Shown here one piece after another: positions 7,370 through 23,776 of a stretch of DNA of 64,000 nt (position 1 is the first letter of the stretch; each line of letters opens with the position of its first letter). The position numbers were made by a program, and so were the translations under genes. The DNA lies in assembly GCF_002902905.1 (NCBI RefSeq), contig NZ_CP026124.1, positions 6,448,001-6,512,000 on the forward strand, read 5' to 3'. The notes under the pieces were generated by a model. That model did not search any database. It was not told where the DNA came from and saw only the letters and a list, made by a program, of their open reading frames with translations. This stretch comes from Achromobacter sp. AONIH1 (GTDB lineage: Bacteria; Pseudomonadota; Gammaproteobacteria; Burkholderiales; Burkholderiaceae_B).

Positions 7370-7822
7370 ATGAGCTCAGACATCCTCCCCGACGACGCCC
7401 CCGTTTCCGCCCCAGTCCCCCAGGCCGACGCGTTCCTGCAGTTCCTCGTGAATCTGGTGAACAACGGCGGACAGCTCAAGAGCATCGGCGTCACGCTGCA
7501 AATGGGCGGCATGCTGGCGTCGGGCTCGATCGTGTCGGGCGCCGAGTATTTCGACACCTTTGCCTCGGGCTTCGCTGACGCGCTGGACGGCCAGGCGAAC
7601 GATACTCGCCAGGCGGTGCGCGCCTCGCTGGCGGAACTGGGCGACGTCTTCCGCCAGCCCCAGCCAGCCGAACCGCTGCCCAACTACATCCATCTGGCCG
7701 ACGCCCTGTTCTTCAGCGCCGACGGCACGCCCATCGCGGGCCAGCCCACCCTGTGGCGCGGCCGGATCGCCGCCGTGGACGGCTTCATCCTGGGACGCCT
7801 GCAATCCGACGTCAACGCCTGA
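7370..7822 (+). CDS. GvpU-like small protein
   Basis: A 150-residue protein resembling the gas-vesicle accessory protein GvpU family. The core pattern seen is 'LVNNGG', 'IGVTLQMGGMLASGSIVSGAEYFD', then 'IHLADALFF' and 'WRGRIAAVDGFILGRL', which matches the beta-rich layout of that family as I remember it. No gas-vesicle structural gene (gvpA) is visible in the window, so the family name should not be read as gas-vesicle function; GvpU-type proteins are found in many bacteria without vesicles. Start at 7370 is the ATG nearest the conserved region. Confidence 0.55.
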   Translation: MSSDILPDDAPVSAPVPQADAFLQFLVNLVNNGGQLKSIGVTLQMGGMLASGSIVSGAEYFDTFASGFADALDGQANDTRQAVRASLAELGDVFRQPQPAEPLPNYIHLADALFFSADGTPIAGQPTLWRGRIAAVDGFILGRLQSDVNA

Positions 7823-7877: not shown

Positions 7878-8693
7878 TCAGGCCGCCAGGCTGCAGGGCT
7901 GGCTCCAGCGCGTGGTGGCGGCACTGAAGCTGCGCCATGCATTGCCATCGGCGCGCAGCCAGGCGTCCAGGCATTCCGGGCTAAGCGCCGAGGACAGGGC
8001 CGAGCCCTGGAACAGCAGGTCGCCATGCCGGCGCAGCCAGGCGAAGTCGCGCATCGCGTCCAGGCGATGCACGGCCAGCTGCAGATTGGCGCTCCAGGCG
8101 CGCTCCATCAGGCTGAAGAAGCGCCACTGCAAGGCCTGGTTCTCGGAAAAGCCGTCGGGAATGTCGACGCGCACGCCCAGCGCCCGCAACACACCATGCG
8201 TGGACGGCACGCCGCCGATGGCCGTGGGCAAAAGGCGCGCGCGCAATTTCGCATTGAATTCGGGATAGCAAAGAAACAGCTCGGCCTGCCGGCAGAGCCG
8301 GATATTCATGGGCAACAGGAACGTCACGCGGCGGGCGGGAACGGAAAGCGGCCCGTCTTGATCATGGTCGACCAGCCTGTTCACCCACAGCGCGTCGCCG
8401 GTCAGGGCGATGCCCAGATCGCCGCACAGGCGCATGGCCGGATCACCTTCCGCGTCCATGTCCATGGCGTGCTCGACGGACAGGTCTATGGGCAGCTCGT
8501 ATTTGTTGAAGAACGCCACGCCGGCCAACAGGCTGGCGCCCATGCCCGACGGCGCCAGGCCCTGCCAGGGCGAAGCGCGGCTGCGTCCCTGCACGGCGTA
8601 CTCATGGACCTGGCCCTGCGCGGTGAACACGGGCTGGAATCTCAACAGCACCGAGTCTTCATAGAGCGCCCAGGCGCGCGACTCGTCATGCAT
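7878..8693 (-). CDS. degenerate EAL-domain protein
   Basis: A 271-residue stand-alone protein that looks like an EAL (cyclic-di-GMP phosphodiesterase) domain stripped of catalysis. The fold-marking segments can be followed: 'VLLRFQPVFTAQGQVHEYAVQGR' where active enzymes have the EAL strand, and a C-terminal 'LQLAVHRLDAMRDFAWLRRHGDLLFQGSAL' where active enzymes have AEGVET and QGY(F). The EAL triad, the asparagine strand, DDFG and the KxD lysine are all missing. Such proteins act as ligand sensors or protein-binding modules rather than enzymes. It is transcribed away from the phosphorelay cluster, whose second gene has an intact EAL domain, suggesting a linked regulatory role (inference). Confidence 0.7.
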   Translation of the reverse strand: MHDESRAWALYEDSVLLRFQPVFTAQGQVHEYAVQGRSRASPWQGLAPSGMGASLLAGVAFFNKYELPIDLSVEHAMDMDAEGDPAMRLCGDLGIALTGDALWVNRLVDHDQDGPLSVPARRVTFLLPMNIRLCRQAELFLCYPEFNAKLRARLLPTAIGGVPSTHGVLRALGVRVDIPDGFSENQALQWRFFSLMERAWSANLQLAVHRLDAMRDFAWLRRHGDLLFQGSALSSALSPECLDAWLRADGNAWRSFSAATTRWSQPCSLAA

Positions 8694-9135
8694 GGCGACT
8701 CCAGACTGCGAGAAAGCGGCGCATGCCGGACAGCGGAACTCGCCACGTGCGAAATGGGGAAAGGATGCGCTCGATTGGGGCGGGCCGACAGCCCGGTGAG
8801 AAGATCATGCTGGCCTCGAATACCGATAATGGCGGGGCCTGCCGTGGCCCCAGCCCGCCTGAGCTGCCGCGCCAGGAAACCGCGGCGAACTGCCGCCAGC
8901 CTCTGCCGTGGCTGGATATCGTGCCGATGGTGCCCAACAGGCACTGCCCCTTGAACAAGAAAATTCTGAATCACTGTTGTTTTCTGAACTTTCCTAGAGA
9001 CCACGCCACCATGGTCATAAGACCTCGCCCACGGCGGAAGGCCCCCGCCCACCGACGGCCAAGGACGATCCCCCTCAAAAGCCTCGCCGGTTTTTAAGAT
9101 TCTTCTCATATCCGGACTGGGCCCGGCTTCCTACC
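8694..9135. other. 442-bp divergent regulatory gap
   Basis: No convincing gene lies here. The two longer open frames have poor composition and no family resemblance. The stretch from about 8945 to 9000 is clearly more AT-rich than its surroundings, and the region must hold the promoters of the degenerate EAL gene (leftward) and the phosphorelay operon (rightward). A motif resembling an RcsB box is at 9095-9108. Confidence 0.6.
9095..9108. promoter_or_regulatory. RcsB-box-like motif
   Basis: TAAGATTCTTCTCA matches the enterobacterial RcsAB box TAAGAATATTCCTA at 10 of 14 positions and sits 28 bp before the first kinase gene of a cluster that encodes an RcsB-like regulator. Autoregulation is possible, but a single 10/14 match is weak evidence. 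Confidence 0.3.
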
Positions 9136-11970
9136 ATGCAGGAAATGCCGGTAAAAGATCTGAGCCCCCCCGCCACCGCCCCCGAAGACGCACCCCGAGC
9201 GGCGTCCGTACTGCTGCAATTTTTCGCCGTGGCCGCGCTCTTTTGCGTCGTGGTGGGCGCCACCCTGTACCTGCACTGGACCTTCAGCAGCGCCGTCTCC
9301 GGATACCGCCGCCAGATGAATGCGGCGGCCTATGACGCGCAACTGTTCTTCGACCAGCGCGAATCGCTGCTGCGCTCGATCCTCGCCTCGGCGGTGCGCA
9401 ACACCGACAAGGCCCCCATCTCCGATACCCCCAGCTACTTCGGCAACACCCGCCAGATCGAAGTCCTGCCCCTGCCCGAGGAACCCGGCCAATACGACTG
9501 GGCGCTGGTGCTGACGCCGCGCGACCTGCTGAACGTCGGCCTGGCCAACGCCACCATGGTCCACACGTCCCTGCGGCGCAACGCCACCATGCGCATCGAC
9601 TCGCACGGCACGCGCGCGGCGCCCGGCATGTCTCCCCGCATCCAGGAATGGCTGACACAGACGCTGCTGCGCCACACTGACATCCCGCCGCGACAGGACG
9701 GGCATCCGCCCATCATCTGGCTGCATCCGCCGATGGATACCGCGCAGCGCCTCTTCCTGTACACGCCGCTTGATATCGGCGATCCGCAGTCGGGCTGGAT
9801 CGGCCTGGAAGTCGCCGGCGTGGACGCGGCGGTCAACCCCGCGAATCTCGGCGGCAGCACGTACTCGCTGTTCGACGAGCGCAACCGTCCCGTGATGCAC
9901 AGCCCCGGCGCCCCCATGTTCGAAGGCGAGGTCACGGACCAGCGCGAAGACTCCTTCCGTCTGCTGGGCGACGGCTGGCCGCCGACGCACCTGGCCCTGA
10001 GCAAGCAGGTCGGCGAAGACGGCTGGCGACTGGTCTACTACACATCGCTGCGGCAAGTGCTGCGCGACCACGCCGCCACCCTCAAGACGGCGGCGGTCGT
10101 CACGACGTTTATCCTGGCCCTGGTGCTGCTGCGGATCCGCTACATCCGCCGGCACATGGTCCAGCCAGCGCTGCGCCAGTACGAAGCGCTGACCGACAGC
10201 GTGTCGCTGAACCGCAAGCTGATCGAGGTCGCGCCCGTGGGCCTGTGCCTGCTGCGACGCAGCGACGGCACGCTGGTCATGTCCAATGAAATGGCGCGCC
10301 ACTGGTTCCAGGACACCCCGGGCTGGCGCGCGGAAATCCTCGCCCACCAAGGCGAAAAGGCCGGCCGCGAATACACGCTGGACGATGGCCGCAGCGCGTA
10401 CCTGACATTCGCTCCCACAACTTATCAGGGCGAGGACGTGGTGCTCTGCGGCATCAGCGACATTTCCGAGCTGAAGAAATTCGAAAGATCGCTGCTCCAG
10501 GCCAAGTACGATGCCGAGGCCGCCAATCACGCCAAGACCGTCTTCCTCACCACCATGAGCCACGAGATCCGCACGCCGCTGTACGGCATTCTCGGCACGC
10601 TTGAACTGTTTTCACTGACCAAGGTGAACGGACAGCAGGAGCAATACCTGGAGACCATCCAGCAGTCCTCGTCGACGCTGCTGCGCACGGTCAACGATAC
10701 GCTGGACCTTTCCCGCATCGAAGCCGGCCACGTCGCGCTCGAGGAAGCGCCGTTCTCGGCCGTGGAACTGCTCAACAACGTCGCGGCAAGCTATGCCGCG
10801 CGCGCCCATGGCAAGGGCTTGCGCACCTACGCCATCTCCGACCCGGCGACGCCCGCCGCGCTGCATGGCGACAGCACGCGCATCCGCCAGATCCTGGACA
10901 ACCTGATGAGCAACGCCATCAAGTTCACGGAAGCCGGCCAGATCGTGCTGAGGCTGCGCCTGATACGGCGCGAACGCGGCCTGTCGACCCTGGCCTTCCA
11001 GGTCGCCGACACCGGCTCCGGCATCGCGCCGCAGCACCAGGCCCGCCTGTTCGAACCCTACTACCAGGTCGACACGGACAAAAACGTGCGCCTGCCCGGC
11101 ACCGGCCTGGGGCTGTCCATCTGCAGCCGGCTTTCCGACATGATGGGCGGCTCGCTCACCGCGGTCAGCGAGCTCGGGCTGGGCACCAGCATCACCTTCG
11201 AAATCACGCTGCCGACCGCGGAAGACCCCGCCGAAGCGCCGGTATCCTTGTCCGGAAACGCCATGATCTACGTGCAAAGCTCGGTGCCCGAGATCGTCTC
11301 GAACCTGTGCGGCTGGCTCCGGCGCTGGGGCGCGGCGGCGGTGCCCTATCCTCCCGCAGGCAGCCCGCGCGTCGACGCCGCCGTTCTGCTGCGGGCATGG
11401 CCGTACGCGCCGGAACCCGCTCACTGGACAGGCCCCACCGTAATCACGCATCCGCCCGGCATGAAGCCGCGCGTGGAGGATGGCAGGCGGACCTGGTTCG
11501 CCAGCTGCTACAGCCTGTCCAACATCGCGCATGCCCTGCGGCTGGCCCTGGGCCGTTCCGCGCACGTCACGAGCTACGGTCAGCCGGCCAAGCACGAACT
11601 TGTCGACCTGCGCGTGCTGGTGGTCGAAGACAACCCCATCAGCCAGCTGATCCTGCGCGAGCAGCTGGAGCACCTGGGCTGCACCGTCGTCACGGCCAGC
11701 AACGGCCAGGAAGCGCTGGCGCTGCCGGACGCCCTGTCGTTCGATTCCGTGCTGACCGACCTGAACATGCCCCTGGTCGACGGCTACGAGCTTACGCGGA
11801 TCCTGCGCGAGCGCGGCTATCAGCAGCCTATCCTCGGCATCACGGCGAATGCCTTCCCCGACGAACAACGCCGGGGCATGAACGCGGGCATGACCAGCCT
11901 GCTGGTGAAACCCCTACCTCTGAATGTCTTGCGCCAGACACTGCAAGCGGTGAAAGTCCCTCGGAGTTGA
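9136..11970 (+). CDS. pvrS: RcsC/PvrS-like hybrid sensor histidine kinase without HPt
   Basis: A 944-residue inner-membrane hybrid kinase. Order: membrane helix at about 29-50, periplasmic sensor domain to about 315, second helix at about 317-335, a PAS-like segment beginning 'EVAPVGLCLLRRSDGTLVMSNE', HisKA with phosphoacceptor His476 (TTMSHEIRTPLYG), HATPase with 'NLMSNAIKFTEAG', 'DTGSGIAP' and 'GTGLGLSI', an ABL-like linker as in RcsC, and a receiver domain from about 825 with Asp875 (VLTDLNMP). No HPt domain follows the receiver, so phosphate must pass through an HPt elsewhere, most simply that of the second kinase. First gene of a four-gene operon; next start is 1 bp after its stop. Named by gene order and domain content. 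Confidence 0.82.
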   Translation: MQEMPVKDLSPPATAPEDAPRAASVLLQFFAVAALFCVVVGATLYLHWTFSSAVSGYRRQMNAAAYDAQLFFDQRESLLRSILASAVRNTDKAPISDTPSYFGNTRQIEVLPLPEEPGQYDWALVLTPRDLLNVGLANATMVHTSLRRNATMRIDSHGTRAAPGMSPRIQEWLTQTLLRHTDIPPRQDGHPPIIWLHPPMDTAQRLFLYTPLDIGDPQSGWIGLEVAGVDAAVNPANLGGSTYSLFDERNRPVMHSPGAPMFEGEVTDQREDSFRLLGDGWPPTHLALSKQVGEDGWRLVYYTSLRQVLRDHAATLKTAAVVTTFILALVLLRIRYIRRHMVQPALRQYEALTDSVSLNRKLIEVAPVGLCLLRRSDGTLVMSNEMARHWFQDTPGWRAEILAHQGEKAGREYTLDDGRSAYLTFAPTTYQGEDVVLCGISDISELKKFERSLLQAKYDAEAANHAKTVFLTTMSHEIRTPLYGILGTLELFSLTKVNGQQEQYLETIQQSSSTLLRTVNDTLDLSRIEAGHVALEEAPFSAVELLNNVAASYAARAHGKGLRTYAISDPATPAALHGDSTRIRQILDNLMSNAIKFTEAGQIVLRLRLIRRERGLSTLAFQVADTGSGIAPQHQARLFEPYYQVDTDKNVRLPGTGLGLSICSRLSDMMGGSLTAVSELGLGTSITFEITLPTAEDPAEAPVSLSGNAMIYVQSSVPEIVSNLCGWLRRWGAAAVPYPPAGSPRVDAAVLLRAWPYAPEPAHWTGPTVITHPPGMKPRVEDGRRTWFASCYSLSNIAHALRLALGRSAHVTSYGQPAKHELVDLRVLVVEDNPISQLILREQLEHLGCTVVTASNGQEALALPDALSFDSVLTDLNMPLVDGYELTRILRERGYQQPILGITANAFPDEQRRGMNAGMTSLLVKPLPLNVLRQTLQAVKVPRS

Positions 11971-11971
11971 A

Positions 11972-13186
11972 ATGCTATCCGAATACAAGGTCCTGGTACT
12001 GGACGACCATGAATTCCAATGCGCCCAGATGTCCGGCCTGCTGGAAGAAGCCGGTTTCACCCAGGTGGATACGGCCCATACCGCCGAACAGGCGTTGACG
12101 CTGGCCCGCCATCATGCGTACCACCTCATCCTCATGGATCTCAGCATGCCGGGCATGGACGGCGTGCAGCTCATCAGCGAACTGGCGCAACTGCGCCTGA
12201 ACCCCATGCTTGCCATCACGACCGCCTGCTCGCGCCGCATCATGAACAGCGTCAGCCTCATGGCCAAGGAAAAAGGCCTGGCGGTGATCGGCGCCTACAC
12301 CAAGCCGCTGACCCGGGAACATGCTCAAGGACTGGCGCAACATCTGCGGCTGGACCGGCATCCGGCGTCCGAGCCCGTCTCCGGCCATGAACAGGACGCG
12401 CTGTTCGATCGCAAGACCCTGGAGCGGGCATTGCGCACCGGCCAGATCCAGGCCTGGTTCCAGCCCAAGAAGGCCCTGACCACCGGCAACATCGTTGGCG
12501 CCGAAGCGCTCGCGCGCTGGCACCATGCGGAATTCGGCTTCATGCTGCCGGCGTCATTCCTGGGCGCGGTGCACAGGCACGGCCTGAACCAGGCCCTGCT
12601 GACCCGCATGCTCGAAGACGCGCTGTCCGCCTACCGACGCTGGCGCAAGCTGGGTTTCAAGGTGCCGGTGTCGGTCAATCTGCCCACCCGACTGCTCGAC
12701 AATCCCCTGCTGCCGGATGAGCTTTACAATACCGTCGCCGCTAGCGGCGTGCCGGCCGAGGACGTGACCTTCGAACTGCTCGAAGACGAAACCACTTCCG
12801 TGCCGGGGCAGTACTACATGGGAGCCAGCCGGCTGCGCCTGAAAGGCTTCGGATTGGCTCAGGACGATTTCGGCAAAGGCTATAGCTCCATGTACACCCT
12901 GATATCCACGCCGTTCACCGAACTCAAGATCGACCGGGCTTTCGTCAGCGGCGCGGCCCACGACAGCGTTCGCGCCGCCGCGCTGCTGTCTTCCGTGCAG
13001 CTGGGACGGCAACTGGGCCTGCAAGTCACCGCCGAGGGCGTCGAAACCTCAAGCGACCTGGAATACCTGCGCAAGATAGGCTGTGATTGCGCGCAGGGAT
13101 TTCTCATATCGGCCGCCGTAAACGTCATGGACTTCACGACGCTGCTGGCGGACGAACCCCGCCTCTACGCAGACATGGACCTATAG
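11972..13186 (+). CDS. pvrR: response regulator with active EAL domain (PvrR/RocR-like)
   Basis: A 404-residue receiver-EAL protein. The receiver (1-125) has phosphoacceptor Asp56 (LILMDLSMPG). The EAL domain (about 145-395) keeps the residues needed for cyclic-di-GMP hydrolysis: Glu178 in EAL (GAEALARW), the Asn of VNLP, the second Glu in 'FELLEDE', the Asp pair in QDDFGKGYSS, Lys in LKIDR, Glu in AEGVET and Gln in QGF. It should therefore lower cyclic-di-GMP when phosphorylated or dephosphorylated by the neighbouring kinases. In Pseudomonas, PvrR and RocR antagonise the partner DNA-binding regulator or biofilm formation. Translation is likely coupled to the upstream kinase. Confidence 0.88.
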   Translation: MLSEYKVLVLDDHEFQCAQMSGLLEEAGFTQVDTAHTAEQALTLARHHAYHLILMDLSMPGMDGVQLISELAQLRLNPMLAITTACSRRIMNSVSLMAKEKGLAVIGAYTKPLTREHAQGLAQHLRLDRHPASEPVSGHEQDALFDRKTLERALRTGQIQAWFQPKKALTTGNIVGAEALARWHHAEFGFMLPASFLGAVHRHGLNQALLTRMLEDALSAYRRWRKLGFKVPVSVNLPTRLLDNPLLPDELYNTVAASGVPAEDVTFELLEDETTSVPGQYYMGASRLRLKGFGLAQDDFGKGYSSMYTLISTPFTELKIDRAFVSGAAHDSVRAAALLSSVQLGRQLGLQVTAEGVETSSDLEYLRKIGCDCAQGFLISAAVNVMDFTTLLADEPRLYADMDL

Positions 13187-13202
13187 GAACGCCCAACCCG
13201 GT

Positions 13203-16532
<3,330 letters not shown>

Positions 16533-16593
16533 CGGTTGATGCAGAATGCGCGGTAATAACTCAGCCCCGCACTATCTGACCCCTTTTTTCCAC

Positions 16594-17244
16594 ATGGATA
16601 GACTTCGAATTGTCCTGGCGGACGACCACCCGCTCGTTCTGATGGGCATGCGCGACCTCCTGGAAAAGGACCTGAGTTTCGACGTCGTCGGCGCCCTGTC
16701 CAGCCCGACCGACCTGGTCCGGCACCTGACGCAAGACCCGCCGCACGTCGTCGTCACCGACTATTCGATGCCGGGCGACGATACCTACGGCGACGGCATG
16801 CGCCTGGTCAAGTACCTGGTGAGGCACTACCCCAAGGTCCAGGTCCTGGTGCTGACCATGGTGTCCAACCCCATGATCATCTCGGCGCTCTATGACGCCG
16901 GCGTCGCCGCCGTGGTGCTCAAGCGCGACAACCTCGCCGAGATCGTGACCGCGCTGCGCACACTGCAAAGCGGCCGCAGGTACTACCCGCCCGGTTTCCT
17001 GCGCGATGGCGCCGTGGACGCGCGCAGCAAATTCATCGGCGAACGCATCAACAGCCTGTCGCCCAAGGAATTCGAAGTGCTGCGCCACTTCATCCGGGGA
17101 GAATCGATGATGCAGGTGGCGGAGACCTTGAAGCGCAGCGTCAAGACCGTCAGCGGCCAGAAGATATCGGCCATGCGCAAGCTGGACGTGCAGACCGACC
17201 AGGAATTGGTCGCATTTTGCGTCGAGAGCGAACTGTTTCAGTAG
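16594..17244 (+). CDS. rcsB: RcsB-like response regulator (NarL/FixJ family)
   Basis: A 216-residue DNA-binding response regulator. Strong resemblance to RcsB is seen throughout: 'IVLADDHPLVLMGMRDLLE', phosphoacceptor Asp56 in 'VVTDYSMPGDDTYGDGM' (the same residue number as E. coli RcsB), 'YDAGVAAVVLKRDN', and the LuxR-type helix-turn-helix 'LSPKEFEVLRHFIRGESM' with 'RSVKTVSGQKISAMRKL'. It is predicted to be the transcriptional output of the phosphorelay. The start at 16594 matches the family; the frame is open 48 bp further up. Its last 7 bp overlap the end of the convergent ubiC gene. Confidence 0.9.
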   Translation: MDRLRIVLADDHPLVLMGMRDLLEKDLSFDVVGALSSPTDLVRHLTQDPPHVVVTDYSMPGDDTYGDGMRLVKYLVRHYPKVQVLVLTMVSNPMIISALYDAGVAAVVLKRDNLAEIVTALRTLQSGRRYYPPGFLRDGAVDARSKFIGERINSLSPKEFEVLRHFIRGESMMQVAETLKRSVKTVSGQKISAMRKLDVQTDQELVAFCVESELFQ

Positions 17245-17825
17245 CCCGGTCCGTCTCCCGCGCCGTCGCTGCGCGACGCGCGGGCGGACAGGACCCAGAA
17301 ACCCGGCAGGAAACATTCCGCCACCAGCAGCGGCTGATCCCGCCGCCAGAACAGGGAACGGCGCGCCCACAGCCCGGGCGACGTTGCGCCGGCATCCCGC
17401 GCCACCGCGTCGGCCATCAGAAACAGCGCCGAGCCGGCCGTCAACCGCGTCACCTCGAAGGGCGATCTCCACACGTCGGGATCGTCATACAGCATGCTGC
17501 CCAGCGGTCGCTCGCTCAGGCCGCGCATGCCGCGCCATGCATCCCACGAAGCCGCCAGCGGCGTCAGGCTGCGCGCCGCCACGCATTTCAAGCCATCGAC
17601 CGACATTTCCACTTCACGCAGCCAGCAGGGCGCGCCCGGCGCCAGGCCCATGGCGCGCGCCTCGTCATCGCTGGCGGCATCCGTGCGTTCCTCCCGCACG
17701 CACAATCGAAACTCGCCCAGCCGCCGCAACCGATCGGTCAGCGAACCGGGCAATCCCAAGCCCTGCCATTGCCCGGGGGACAAGACCGCCTGAATCGCTT
17801 CAGGTCCATAAGGGTTCCATTGCAT
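17238..17825 (-). CDS. ubiC: chorismate--pyruvate lyase
   Basis: A 195-residue UbiC, which removes pyruvate from chorismate to give 4-hydroxybenzoate, the first committed step of ubiquinone synthesis. Family marks seen are 'LTDRLRRLG' early, the substrate pocket Arg in 'CWLREVEM', 'ARSLTPLAA', 'LSERPLGSMLYDDPDV' and the C-terminal Glu in 'LLVAECFLP'. It is slightly longer than the E. coli enzyme (165 residues), partly at the N-terminus; an earlier ATG at 17879 is possible. It is a single gene, convergent with the RcsB-like gene with a 7-bp overlap. Confidence 0.85.
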   Translation of the reverse strand: MQWNPYGPEAIQAVLSPGQWQGLGLPGSLTDRLRRLGEFRLCVREERTDAASDDEARAMGLAPGAPCWLREVEMSVDGLKCVAARSLTPLAASWDAWRGMRGLSERPLGSMLYDDPDVWRSPFEVTRLTAGSALFLMADAVARDAGATSPGLWARRSLFWRRDQPLLVAECFLPGFWVLSARASRSDGAGDGPGY

Positions 17826-20750: not shown

Positions 20751-20945
20751 CTATCGCGCCAGCGGATCGACCTGCGCCGGGCGGAATTCGTCGATGTCGA
20801 ACGGTTCGAGCGTCGCGGGAACGTCCAGCGGTTTTTCAAGCTGGTGTGGCGCGTAGAACAGCCGATGGTTGCCGACCTCCTTGATCAGCACCTCGTCCTC
20901 GAATTGCCATACCTGGTTGGTCTGGGTGTCTTTGAAGGTTTGCAT
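20751..20945 (-). CDS. small phage-tail-associated protein
   Basis: A 64-residue acidic protein ('MQTFKDTQTNQVWQFEDEVL', then 'FYAPHQLEKPLDVPATLEPFD'). Its start overlaps the stop of the tail-fibre-like gene (TGATG), so it is translationally coupled to it. Position and size suggest a fibre assembly helper or a short fibre cap, as commonly follows phage tail-fibre genes, but no family is recognised with confidence. Confidence 0.65.
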   Translation of the reverse strand: MQTFKDTQTNQVWQFEDEVLIKEVGNHRLFYAPHQLEKPLDVPATLEPFDIDEFRPAQVDPLAR

Positions 20946-22132
20946 CAGCGATACTCCAACCAGTATTCGATCTTTGCATTGACCGCACTGGCGAAATAGG
21001 TTGTTCCCGGCGGAATGATGGCATTCACCGCGATGCCGTTCTCCGGAGCCTGGGCCTGAAATACGGCAACTGGAATGCTCGCCATCAAGATATTGATGTA
21101 GCCGCCGGCGGCTGTTGAGCCACCGTACAGATAGACCGATATCGGCTTGCGCGTCGAGTTCACGTAAGTAATTCCCGGCAGTCGCTGCCCGGCCAGATTG
21201 ACCAGTGTCTGATCGACCCCAAATGCCTTGGCCTTGGTCTGCGGATCCGCGCTGTACCAGCGTGTCCAGACGCCCTCGTACTTCATTCGATATTGGAACC
21301 CCGGCGTGATTTCTTCCGAGTTGTAATACGGGATCGCAATCTGCGTCAGCGTATCCCGATCGCTGAACCAGTGATGCCGGACGTAGTAGTACTGCCCGGC
21401 CGGAGGCCCGTTCTGCGAACTGCCGCCACTGCGTATCAAGCGCATGACGAGTCCGTCATTGCGGGCATGCTTGGGCAGTTCGTTCCAGTTGGCGTCGTCC
21501 CACACGGTAGCCGTCGTGACATGCGGAATCTGCGCGTCGGCCAGCGTCGCCAGGCGGCCTTCCAGCGTGGCCACGCCCGACTGTATGCCCGCGTAGGAAA
21601 GCGGAATCTTCGTTTGCGCCTTTTTATCGGCCTCATCGGCGGCGGCCTGGGCCACGGCGGCGGCTTGCGCGGCCGCGACAGCCTTGCCGTCCGCGACCAC
21701 GGCGGCCGCATTGGCGGCCAGCGCCTTCCTGTCGGCCTCGCTGGCCGCCGCCAGACCGGAAGCGGCGGACTGCGCCGCCGTTGCCGCCGCCGCATTGGCG
21801 GCGACCGCCTTCCTGTTGGCTTCGTCGGCTGCGGCCTGGGCCGCGACGGCCTTGCCGTCGGCCGCCGCCGCAGCGGCCAGGCCAGCGGCTGCCGACTGCG
21901 CCGCTGCCACCGCCTTTCCGTCCGCCGTCGCGGCGGCCGCGCCAGCGCCGACGGCCTTGTCGTGCGCCGCATCGGCCCGCTGTTGCGCGCCTGTGGCTGC
22001 CGCTTCGACCTTGTCGACCGCGGTCTCGACCTGGGTGAAGTTCTCGTTCACCTTGACCATGCCGTCGCGCAGCGGATCGCCTGTGCGGTCATTGGCCTGC
22101 TGGCCCACATTGATGGGTTGGAGTCTTTGCAT
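20945..22132 (-). CDS. phage tail-fibre-like protein with Ala-rich coiled shaft
   Basis: A 395-residue protein. The N-terminal 32 residues ('MQRLQPINVGQQANDRTGDP', then 'LRDGMVKVNENF') are a tail-attachment module shared, with three differences, by the upstream gene. Residues about 45-170 are an Ala-rich segment with repeated ADGKAVAAA / ADEANRKAVAA units, predicted as a coiled-coil shaft. The C-terminal 220 residues are not low-complexity and contain 'WNELPKHARNDGLVMRLI', 'GQYYYVRHHWFSDRDTLTQIA' and 'RYYNSEE'-like pyocin-knob features, the likely receptor-binding head. No other phage genes surround it. Confidence 0.75.
   Translation of the reverse strand: MQRLQPINVGQQANDRTGDPLRDGMVKVNENFTQVETAVDKVEAAATGAQQRADAAHDKAVGAGAAAATADGKAVAAAQSAAAGLAAAAAADGKAVAAQAAADEANRKAVAANAAAATAAQSAASGLAAASEADRKALAANAAAVVADGKAVAAAQAAAVAQAAADEADKKAQTKIPLSYAGIQSGVATLEGRLATLADAQIPHVTTATVWDDANWNELPKHARNDGLVMRLIRSGGSSQNGPPAGQYYYVRHHWFSDRDTLTQIAIPYYNSEEITPGFQYRMKYEGVWTRWYSADPQTKAKAFGVDQTLVNLAGQRLPGITYVNSTRKPISVYLYGGSTAAGGYINILMASIPVAVFQAQAPENGIAVNAIIPPGTTYFASAVNAKIEYWLEYR
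21617..22000 (-). repeat. Ala-rich tandem repeat region within tail-fibre gene
   Basis: Irregular tandem units based on A-D-G/E-x-K-A-V-A-A are visible over about 125 residues, such as ADGKAVAAAQSAAAGLAA and ADRKALAANAAAVVADGKAV. The DNA is correspondingly rich in GCC/GCG codons and prone to slipped-strand change. Confidence 0.65.
22037..22132 (-). repeat. direct repeat copy 1: shared 5' end of tail-fibre genes
   Basis: The first 32 codons here match those at 23681-23776 closely in DNA and at 29 of 32 residues, in the same orientation 1644 bp apart. This marks a duplication of the attachment module and a possible site of homologous exchange between the two genes. Confidence 0.75.
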
Positions 22133-22170
22133 GATGATTTGATTTGAAAAGGTTGCATGGGAGATGAGGT

Positions 22171-22197
22171 AGCAGGCTGCCGCAAGGGCAGCCTGCT
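22171..22197 (-). terminator. strong hairpin between the two tail-fibre genes
   Basis: AGCAGGCTGCC and GGCAGCCTGCT form a perfect 11-bp stem with a 5-nt loop, just past the stop of the 524-residue fibre gene. There is no T-run on the minus strand, so it may slow rather than stop transcription, or protect a 3' end. Confidence 0.5.
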
Positions 22198-22201
22198 CTC
22201 G

Positions 22202-23776
22202 CTACCCTCCGATCCTGCCCTTCAGCTTCCACACCTTCAGACGAAAGCGCGCGTTGACCTGGTTCTGCGACCAGGCGCCGACCCAGGAGCCACCCGCAAT
22301 GGCGGGATCCGTGGCGGTGCCGTTCTTGCCTGCCCGCACGATGATCTTGTCCGTCACAAGGCCATGGGCGGCCTTCAGGCCCCATCCGGAAAAGGGATCA
22401 TTGGGCGCCCCCGTGCGGTCCGTCGAGCAGAACCAGCCGGGTTCGAACCACTGACCGTTCAACTCATGCTCGACCACGACCTGGACCGGAGAGCCTGGGA
22501 ACGGGTTGTCTATCGTCTGTACCGTGTTCTGATAGATGACCCCGGGAGTGGTCGCCGAACCGCCGGGATAGAGCAGCTTGAAGTCAATATCGGTCTGGAA
22601 CGCCGCGTCAAGAGCGGCGAGCCTGGTGGCCAGTTGTGCGGCATCGACGCTACCGGGGCGCGACACGGCGCCGAACACCTTGATGATGAAGCAGCCTGTG
22701 ATGTTCTGCGGGCGCGTTTCGGCTGCAGTCCTCGCTACACTGGAGAGCTGAAATTCTAGATAGTCATATGAATTTGCGTTGCTCGACATCTGCGAGGCGC
22801 CAAAGAGTTGTCGCTCGCCACCGGGTTTGAGCACTCCCGATCCGCCCATGTACACAGTCCCGGTGCCCGCGCCATGAAAGTAGGCTCTACCCTCCACGTT
22901 TTGCATGGCATCAGGTTGAATGCTCCCTGATATACCCACCGAATTTCCCCCGTCGCCGGAGAGAAAAACTCGACCCAATGAGTTTGCAGACTTGCCGTTG
23001 TAGTCCGGCACGCGAATGCTGGTTGCCCCATCGCCAAGCGTGTAGGCGCCACGCTTGAGCGGATCCGCCAGCCACTCGGCCTCGGACACGACCGGGACAA
23101 CGCCATCCGCGACGGCCGCCGCCAGATCCGGAAACGTCGCCCGCGACACGAGCTGCCCATCGCCGGGAATCCAGCCCGCCCAGATCCCTCCCCGCTTCGG
23201 CGCCCAGGCCACGAAGCCCGTGGGAATCGATTCGATCGGAGGCAGCTGCGCCGCCGGCACCTTGCCCTGCGCGTCCAGCGGGGCCACGCCGTCGGGCGCG
23301 CCCCGCTGGATCACCGGCAGGTAGTCCAGCTTCGGCAGGTGGGCGACCGGCACCTTGCCGGCGGCGTCCAAGGGGGTCACGCCGTCCGCCGCGCCCTTCT
23401 GCGACATGGGTATGGAATCGGGCAAATGACCGGCCGGCACCTTGCCCGCCGCGTCCAGCGGCGCCACGCCACCGGCCGCGCCCTTTTGCGACATCGGCAC
23501 GGAATCGGGCAGGTTGCCGGCGGGCACCTTGCCGTCCGCGTCCAGCGGCGCCACGCCGCCGGGCCGGTTCTTCTGCACGGCGGGCAGCGCCGCGGCGGCG
23601 ATATCGCGCGCGGAGCCCGCGAGCGCGCTGGTCTGCGCCACGGCGGTCTCCACGGCGTCCATGGCCGTCGTCACCTTGGCGAAGTTCTCGTTGACCTTGG
23701 ACATGCCGTCGCGCAGCGGATCACCGCTGCGGTCATTGGCCTGCTGGCCCACGTTGATGGGTATGAGTCGTTGCAT
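22202..23776 (-). CDS. phage tail-fibre/tail-collar protein
   Basis: A 524-residue fibre. The N-terminal 32 residues are the same attachment module as in the downstream fibre. Residues about 73-180 hold four linker repeats of about 29-31 residues built on GVAPLDAxGKVPxxxLP. Residues about 183-290 resemble the phage tail-collar domain ('PTGFVAWAP', 'GWIPGDGQLVSRATFPDLAAA', 'IRVPDYNG'), ending in the usual 'RPQNITGCFIIKVFG'. The last 150 residues are a separate C-terminal domain with no family recognised, likely the receptor-binding tip. It is the first gene of a three-gene leftward island. Confidence 0.8.
   Translation of the reverse strand: MQRLIPINVGQQANDRSGDPLRDGMSKVNENFAKVTTAMDAVETAVAQTSALAGSARDIAAAALPAVQKNRPGGVAPLDADGKVPAGNLPDSVPMSQKGAAGGVAPLDAAGKVPAGHLPDSIPMSQKGAADGVTPLDAAGKVPVAHLPKLDYLPVIQRGAPDGVAPLDAQGKVPAAQLPPIESIPTGFVAWAPKRGGIWAGWIPGDGQLVSRATFPDLAAAVADGVVPVVSEAEWLADPLKRGAYTLGDGATSIRVPDYNGKSANSLGRVFLSGDGGNSVGISGSIQPDAMQNVEGRAYFHGAGTGTVYMGGSGVLKPGGERQLFGASQMSSNANSYDYLEFQLSSVARTAAETRPQNITGCFIIKVFGAVSRPGSVDAAQLATRLAALDAAFQTDIDFKLLYPGGSATTPGVIYQNTVQTIDNPFPGSPVQVVVEHELNGQWFEPGWFCSTDRTGAPNDPFSGWGLKAAHGLVTDKIIVRAGKNGTATDPAIAGGSWVGAWSQNQVNARFRLKVWKLKGRIGG
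23237..23560 (-). repeat. four tandem linker repeats in tail-fibre gene
   Basis: Four copies of a unit of about 29-31 codons encoding GVAPLDAxGKVPxxxLP plus a variable link (SxPMSQKGAA in two of them) follow one another. Such units are typical of phage fibre shafts and can change number by recombination. Confidence 0.75.
23681..23776 (-). repeat. direct repeat copy 2: shared 5' end of tail-fibre genes
   Basis: Second copy of the 32-codon attachment module found at 22037-22132; see that entry for the comparison. Confidence 0.75.

Follow-up and report, generated by a model that had tools for sequence, protein, structure and literature searches.

The stretch of DNA analysed here (the window: 64,000 nucleotides, positions 6,448,001-6,512,000 of the 6.65-Mb single-contig genome of Achromobacter sp. 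AONIH1) carries a four-gene phosphorelay of the Pvr/Rcs type and, divergent from it, a fifth gene, here called EALd, which codes for an EAL-fold protein without catalytic residues. We consider it rather probable that this phosphorelay is a self-controlled adhesin switch that acts on unlinked genes, is opposed by PvrR and has EALd as a non-catalytic modulator. The four-gene core is ordinary, the fifth gene is unusual, and the operator between them is informative. The relay and its box regulon have support at the level of sequence, and for EALd we propose a role.

The four-gene set, a probable operon, and its predicted phosphorelay

An earlier note on this DNA had described four adjacent genes in the order pvrS-pvrR-rcsC-rcsB. 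The open reading frame (ORF) and Pfam scan of positions 9136-17244 agrees with it: four ORFs lie on the same strand in that order, with the architectures HisKA-HATPase-REC, REC-EAL, HisKA-HATPase-REC-HPt and REC-GerE(LuxR), all above the Pfam gathering cut-offs. The note had overlooked the EAL-like gene at 7878-8693 on the minus strand, the intergenic boxes and the reduced loci of relatives in which an HPt is retained. The features are the following (aa, amino acids; PWM, position weight matrix):

7878-8693, minus strand: EALd, EAL-fold protein of 271 aa that lacks catalytic residues; gene divergent from pvrS
8955-8971, plus strand: RcsB-type box ACAAGAAAATTCTGAAT, EALd-proximal, about 260 bp before the EALd start; conserved block, exact match, PWM 21.4 bits, outside the training set
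9093-9109, minus strand: RcsB-type box ATGAGAAGAATCTTAAA, pvrS-proximal, 26 bp before the pvrS ATG; conserved block, exact match, PWM 30.4 bits, in the training set
9136-11970, plus strand: pvrS-like hybrid histidine kinase, 944 aa, two hydrophobic (transmembrane-like) segments, HisKA-HATPase-REC, no HPt (Pfam)
11972-13186, plus strand: pvrR-like REC-EAL response regulator, 404 aa, EAL catalytic motifs kept (Pfam; NCBIfam PvrR, 479 bits)
13203-16532, plus strand: rcsC-like unorthodox kinase, 1109 aa, HisKA-HATPase-REC-HPt (Pfam; HPt 32.4 bits)
16546-17244, plus strand: rcsB-like REC-LuxR regulator, 232 aa as called, probable start 16594 (Pfam; NCBIfam RcsB, 174.6 bits)

The intergenic gaps within the four-gene set are 1, 16 and 13 bp, and these short distances make a single operon likely. 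The rcsB-like protein probably begins at Met 16594 (216 aa) because homology starts at residue 16-17 in most relatives, in which case the last gap is 61 bp. A promoter scan of 8600-17400 found no promoter.

All four proteins keep the phospho-acceptor residues expected of a PvrSR/RcsCB system, namely H476 and D875 in the PvrS-like protein, D56 in the PvrR-like protein, H513, D909 and the HPt residue H1057 in the RcsC-like protein, and D72 in the RcsB-like protein. The last of these is the Asp56 singled out in the earlier note, when counted from Met 16594. The PvrR-like protein has the EAL motif residues E178, N236, E268, D298/D299, K319, E355 and Q375. Both kinases have Thr at H+4 (T517 in the RcsC-like protein) and two hydrophobic segments each, which suggests pairs of transmembrane helices.

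Genetic work on P. aeruginosa PA14, as described in a passage of PMC3842833, assigns the kinase role to PvrS, and to RcsC a relay function via its HPt plus a phosphatase function. A natural deletion series among relatives supports this relay model (G-numbers denote genomes of the same genus and L-numbers fetched loci, in which genes were called by a codon-usage script written for the analysis). Six reduced loci have lost the RcsC kinase core, and an HPt-bearing piece remains in five of them: G030 and G014 each have a free HPt ORF, the one in G028 is short and has perhaps decayed, and G022 and G016 have an ORF of about 400 aa running from HATPase to HPt (L144 and L151 are such loci). The ORF of about 400 aa resembles enteric RcsD in outline. 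That the HPt outlasts the kinase core is expected if phosphate runs from PvrS through the HPt to RcsB. Two further genomes, G025 and G007, have PvrS-RcsB without RcsC at the site, and a separate HPt-like ORF lies 3-5 kb away, upstream of the pair:

L186, 3458-3862, plus strand: HPt-like ORF 3-5 kb upstream of the PvrS-RcsB pair
L187, 18362-18799, minus strand: HPt-like ORF 3-5 kb upstream of the PvrS-RcsB pair

Counting against the model, G026 keeps PvrS and RcsB and no HPt was found at the site; besides, loci of related species are not independent events. A fusion of PvrS with the HPt in the reduced loci was considered and rejected, as the HPts are separate ORFs and their frame differs from that of PvrS in G030, G014 and G028. 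On this evidence, the chain from PvrS through the RcsC HPt to RcsB is very probable.

The probable operator box between EALd and pvrS

The RcsAB-box-like site YRAGAANNWTCTNAA occurs in two copies between EALd and pvrS. Intergenic alignments contain two conserved blocks, of which one is nearer EALd and the other nearer pvrS, and the same pair lies between EALd and rcsB in most of the loci where RcsB alone is left. Training of the box matrix drew on 28 sites, which came from 18 of 21 intergenic regions, with L150 outside the 21; the training expression missed L156, L163 and L167, though a related block aligns there, and the rcsB-side block is degenerate or missing in those three. Only two sites in the 64-kb window reach 9 bits, and they are the two boxes at 8955-8971 and 9093-9109. 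Across 37 held-out loci (732,297 bases) the matrix finds 46 sites of at least 16 bits, against a mean of 2.1 and a maximum of 10 for 40 column-permuted matrices. A wider scan covered 57 loci, some of them one locus taken twice, with at most six sites listed for each; the sites listed are upstream of PvrS, EALd or an autotransporter, save eight, of which seven lie between EALd and a CS1-type usher and one lies in L037. Three Pseudomonas Pvr loci (L024, L026 and L027) have an autotransporter gene divergent from PvrS, with a box between the two.

The box resembles the RcsAB consensus TaAGaatatTCcta, as quoted in a passage of PMC4325325, and the window RcsB-like protein matches E. coli RcsB chains at E ~1e-45 with a similar recognition helix. 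It differs from E. coli RcsB in its score against NCBIfam RcsB (NF008098), which at 174.6 bits is below the cut-off of 235 although this is the best of the families listed, and in the layout of the upstream sensors and relay. For PA14, a passage of PMC3842833 states that GAA at -78 is required for cupD1. We regard it as likely that the box is bound by the window RcsB-like regulator.

Several observations pull the other way. With 26 bp between it and the annotated ATG, the pvrS-proximal box might just as well serve repression, and the other box is about 260 bp from EALd. No box of at least 16 bits was found in 13 of the 57 scanned loci, among them the lone-rcsB sites of seven genomes. The genome also holds eight other RcsB-like matches (the closest at 45, 42 and 35% identity), one of which could use the same box.

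Predicted targets elsewhere in the genome

The statement of the earlier note that no fimbrial genes adjoin the set holds, since no usher gene lies within the window (the usher matches of the genome are at 0.60, 1.40, 2.55, 3.41 and 5.28 Mb); it can now be supplemented by predicted box targets at other places on the chromosome. The whole genome contains four exact matches to YRAGAANNWTCTNAA versus one to the reversed pattern, and two of the four are the EALd-pvrS intergenic boxes. Another, at 408,544, is about 170 bp before the gene of a 766-aa autotransporter-domain protein. The remaining one, at 3,406,017, stands about 130 bp ahead of the gene of a CS1-like pilin, which narrowly misses the Pfam cut-off of 21 with 20.4 bits. 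After the pilin comes a TcfC-type usher that shares 67% identity with the one next to the Pvr locus in L017.

When one mismatch is allowed, a box at 6,031,315 lies about 155 bp before an AC_1 autotransporter gene, whose product is the best homolog (57%) of the autotransporter beside Pvr loci in sister species, and a box at 2,324,066 lies about 110 bp before the gene of an OmpR-type regulator. Six relatives (G034, G035, G018, G013, G036 and G022) have an exact box 111-115 bp upstream of a gene that agrees with the latter in length and N-terminus; the counterpart in G034, the sole one compared, is 71% identical. The relay's predicted targets are unlinked adhesins, namely the CS1-type fimbrial operon and autotransporters.

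In 43 genomes of the genus there are 177 exact boxes versus 38 reversed, counts to which the intergenic boxes that yielded the pattern contribute up to two per genome. The seven genomes with a complete operon hold 54 versus 2. Individual positions are given as far as part of G036, and the flanks of 40 hand-picked sites among the listed matches of nine relatives were examined: 27 are at most 320 bp upstream of a called gene and four are neither upstream of nor inside one. Recurrent box-preceded genes at these sites, with one representative of each checked by Pfam, code for an OmpR-type regulator (6), a type-1-like fimbrial subunit (4), a TssA-like protein (4), a TonB receptor (5) and a GNAT acetyltransferase (5). 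An exact box precedes the TssA-like type VI gene by 124-125 bp, opposite a large divergent gene, in four relatives (L248, L259, L281 and L285). An exact box precedes the GNAT acetyltransferase gene by 72 bp in five relatives (L250, L257, L265, L267 and L274), where it may be used by another regulator.

Some of these results speak against so broad a regulon. The sites with one mismatch number 68 in the genome versus 29 for the reversed pattern, so many of them are chance matches. The genome has four homologs of the sister-species autotransporter; a strong box close to the start is confined to one of them, and the other three have box scores of 11.9, 13.4 and 18.0 bits, with the 18.0-bit box at a distance of about 400 bp. 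Nine of the 40 examined boxes lie inside genes.

The box could instead be read by a paralogous RcsB encoded at 0.60, 5.27 or 6.53 Mb, with the window regulator having some other site. RcsB paralogs do exist in this genome, and seven of the eight genomes without this RcsB still hold other RcsB-like genes, which qualifies the comparison of box counts. That comparison nevertheless runs against a paralog: exact boxes number 161 versus 27 reversed in the 35 genomes with an RcsB of at least 70% identity, and 16 versus 11, near the control, in the eight without (one of which is 57% and one 78% complete). The contrast is not an independent test because the genomes are related. Boxes also stand at this operon's own promoter in most layouts, and we judge the paralog unlikely.

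EALd, a degenerate EAL protein of the genus

The predicted structure of EALd is an EAL fold (predicted template modelling score, pTM, 0.81), and the EAL domains of FimX and LapD are among its structural matches; YdiV is not among the matches listed, which excludes nothing. By profile alignment, none of the 26 members has the Glu of EAL, the Asp of KID or the first Glu of AEGVE, so that EALd does not qualify as an active phosphodiesterase, and the Gln of QG is kept in seven of the 26. The gene is present in 39 of 43 genomes of the genus. In a survey of 200 sampled genomes of the wider family, in most of which 13 candidates were scored, the EALd profile matched at least 10, all of the same genus.

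Linkage to the relay is close. Of 40 EALd loci (the window and L139-L177), 39 have a Pvr/Rcs component nearby, and L177 is the one that has none in the fetched stretch. The layouts vary. At a site marked by a homolog of the window gene at 7370-7822 there are 22 loci, with the full operon or its start on a short contig (8), PvrS-PvrR-broken RcsC-RcsB (1), PvrS-RcsB with or without an RcsC remnant (5) or RcsB only (8). In eight others EALd diverges from a PvrS-PvrR-RcsC set whose regulator is a different one, 33-38% identical to RcsB, in four it follows RcsC and RcsB is upstream of PvrS, and in five it lies between RcsC and CS1-type fimbriae. All eight RcsB-only genomes have PvrS-PvrR-RcsC elsewhere, with no RcsB in the fetched stretch and, in five of the eight, beside an autotransporter.

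From its position, the box on its side, its lost catalytic residues and the precedent of YdiV and BvgR, we infer a regulatory role for EALd. That it acts on RcsB or the relay has, in our estimate, slightly less than an even chance. We propose more tentatively the fuller reading, in which EALd is a genus-specific, box-controlled, non-catalytic EAL protein that would bind the RcsB-like regulator (or its HPt) and set the adhesin level, with an active PvrR and a dead EALd on the same output. The distribution of the genes weakens the case to some extent, as EALd occurs without an RcsB of at least 70% identity in six genomes, one 57% and one 78% complete, and RcsB occurs without EALd in G001 and G006. 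The idea that EALd and RcsB form an inseparable pair was rejected on the latter two genomes, which have an RcsB ortholog, and on five genomes with CS1-type loci that hold EALd far from RcsB.

EALd might also be a decaying EAL copy, presently without function, that hitchhikes with the locus. Its catalytic residues are gone, it evolves fast (the ratio of non-synonymous to synonymous change, pN/pS, is about 0.5 in most pairs, against 0.17 for RcsB), its frame is split in G039, and it was not found in four of the 43 genomes. Yet pN is below pS in five of five pairs, 20 columns are invariant among the 26 members, the gene is kept in the eight loci where RcsB alone is left, a conserved box stands on its side and an EAL fold is predicted, all of which makes decay very unlikely.

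Another possibility is that EALd does not act independently of nucleotide but is a receptor of cyclic di-GMP (c-di-GMP) that feeds information on the product of PvrR activity to the relay. The EAL domains of FimX and LapD bind c-di-GMP in solved structures, and a passage of a review (PMC12805831) proposes the same for the comparable Bordetella protein BvgR. The residue losses described above argue against such binding, being read from profile-alignment positions and not from ligand modelling, and EALd persists in G014, G016, G026 and G030, where no PvrR was found at E<=1e-70. We hold this receptor role to be rather unlikely.

Relation to the named families and known systems

NCBIfam PvrR (NF052596) is the best family for the window PvrR-like protein, at 479 bits against an equivalog cut-off of 580. 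RcsC is the best NCBIfam match of both kinases, far below its cut-off (429.6 versus 920 bits for the PvrS-like protein). Nothing placed the genes with unrelated two-component families, the outcome that the earlier note had named as contrary to its interpretation. The PvrR proteins beside chaperone-usher genes in L037 and L040 (two Pseudomonas species) and L047 (A. insolitus) score 616-627 bits and pass. The score split is imperfect, as the PvrR of this genome's own usher-linked L116 (0.60 Mb) also falls short, at 548 bits.

A tree of 37 rows was built for PvrR alone, with PA14 (PAPI-1) sequences not among the rows. The window protein joins L006/L007 with support 97/98 (its closest relatives are from Achromobacter kerstersii and A. 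piechaudii, 77-78% identity) and falls in a 21-row group of Achromobacter, Comamonadaceae, Corticimicrobacter and Pseudomonas (94/100, not starred), apart from L037, L040 and L047. The deeper order is unsure because long branches meet, as the tool warned. The window system appears, by sequence, to work like PvrSR-RcsCB and to be a sister variant outside the named equivalog. Of the earlier interpretation, the assignment to the Pvr/Rcs type stands, as do the phosphorelay and the probable adhesin link; what changes is that the genes form a separate branch and are not the named PvrR equivalog.

The locus could be viewed as the known PvrSR-RcsCB/CupD system minus its neighbouring fimbrial operon, with EALd as an unrelated neighbour. 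The four architectures and their order are the same, and in L047 and many Pseudomonas loci chaperone-usher genes stand beside the four-gene set. However, PvrR scores below the equivalog cut-off and lies outside the group that holds L037, L040 and L047, many relatives of the same clade adjoin autotransporters or CS1-type fimbriae, and EALd is linked in 39 of 40 loci with several layouts; this view of the locus is in our opinion improbable. That one fixed adhesin type accompanies the locus was rejected as a general reading, because the adjoining adhesin genes differ between Pvr loci (chaperone-usher, CS1-type, AC_1 autotransporter or none). A plasmid search for PvrR relatives gave distant matches only (nine records, all below 60% identity), and among open-access literature, at the level of titles, no paper title dealt with this Achromobacter system.

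Compared with PvrSR/RcsCB of PA14 PAPI-1 (CupD), the four genes, their order, domains and phosphosites, the PvrR EAL motifs and the RcsC H+4 Thr are the same, the likeness being to the published description in passages of PMC3842833 and PMC2696094 rather than to PA14 sequence. The window differs in its lower PvrR score and separate clade, in having EALd and no adjoining cupD-type chaperone-usher operon, and in its predicted targets, CS1-type fimbriae and autotransporters. CblRST, which controls cable pili in Burkholderia cepacia, likewise has two sensors and one regulator and shares the HPt of one sensor, by description; the passage of PMC3842833 on it mentions no EAL protein. YdiV/RflP of enteric bacteria, again compared by description, is a degenerate EAL protein that acts by binding a transcription factor, with FlhDC and Fur as targets (a passage of PMC7515728); the partner of EALd is a proposed one. 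BvgR of Bordetella, according to a passage of PMC12805831, is non-catalytic and EAL-like, driven by a two-component regulator and devoid of a DNA-binding domain, and in these respects EALd is likened to it by description. No sequence link was found between the two; the family survey matched EALd in one genus only, with the presence of Bordetella in that sample unverified and BvgR itself not compared. In Bordetella the BvgR gene adjoins bvgAS, and BvgS has an HPt.

Proposed mechanism and its significance

The mechanism that we propose builds on observed gene content, residues, linkage, boxes and deletion series and on the predicted EALd fold. PvrS would autophosphorylate and pass phosphate to the HPt of RcsC and from there to the RcsB-like regulator, and RcsC would also remove phosphate. 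Phosphorylated RcsB would bind YRAGAANNWTCTNAA between EALd and the pvrS operon, which would constitute feedback, and would also bind the box upstream of the CS1-type fimbrial operon, autotransporters and the OmpR-type regulator elsewhere on the chromosome. PvrR would be induced together with the operon, hydrolyse c-di-GMP and counter attachment. EALd, itself adjoined by a box, would most likely exert its effect through protein contact with RcsB or the relay, much as YdiV does with FlhDC. The kinase, relay and phosphatase roles, the positive feedback and the PvrR-mediated dispersal are carried over from PA14 experiments; RcsB there induces its own cluster, pvrR included (a passage of PMC3842833). 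Box occupancy, the direction of control and the partner of EALd are what we infer for the window itself.

It is an open question how EAL proteins that lack their catalytic residues control genes, and the mechanism of BvgR is called poorly understood in a passage of a 2025 review of Bordetella c-di-GMP signalling (PMC12805831). EALd is such a protein genetically tied to a named relay, and natural loci reduced to the EALd gene and rcsB exist. If EALd does act on RcsB, it would give RcsB a partner of the EAL type and offer a tractable system in which to study how BvgR-like proteins work. The conserved operator, in turn, gives an orphan signalling operon concrete candidate targets, namely CS1-type fimbriae, autotransporters and an OmpR-type regulator, and in relatives also a type VI gene.

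Other relay loci and neighbouring genes

Related loci occur elsewhere in the genome. At 603,393-608,558 (L116) there is a second PvrR-RcsC-RcsB set, with no PvrS seen and a chaperone-usher operon about 6 kb on. At 2.55-2.57 Mb (L117), a REC-EAL gene (248 bits to PvrR) lies opposite a LuxR-type regulator, with a chaperone-usher operon at a distance of about 7 kb, and at 5.274-5.285 Mb (L118) an RcsB-like regulator (42%) lies near a two-partner secretion pair and a chaperone-usher operon. Within the window, a chorismate lyase gene (PF04345; 17238-17879, minus strand) is convergent with the rcsB-like gene and overlaps its end by 7 bp, and two adjoining related genes at 20945-23776 (minus strand), both starting MQRL.PINVGQQANDR, are tail-fibre-like by impression only.

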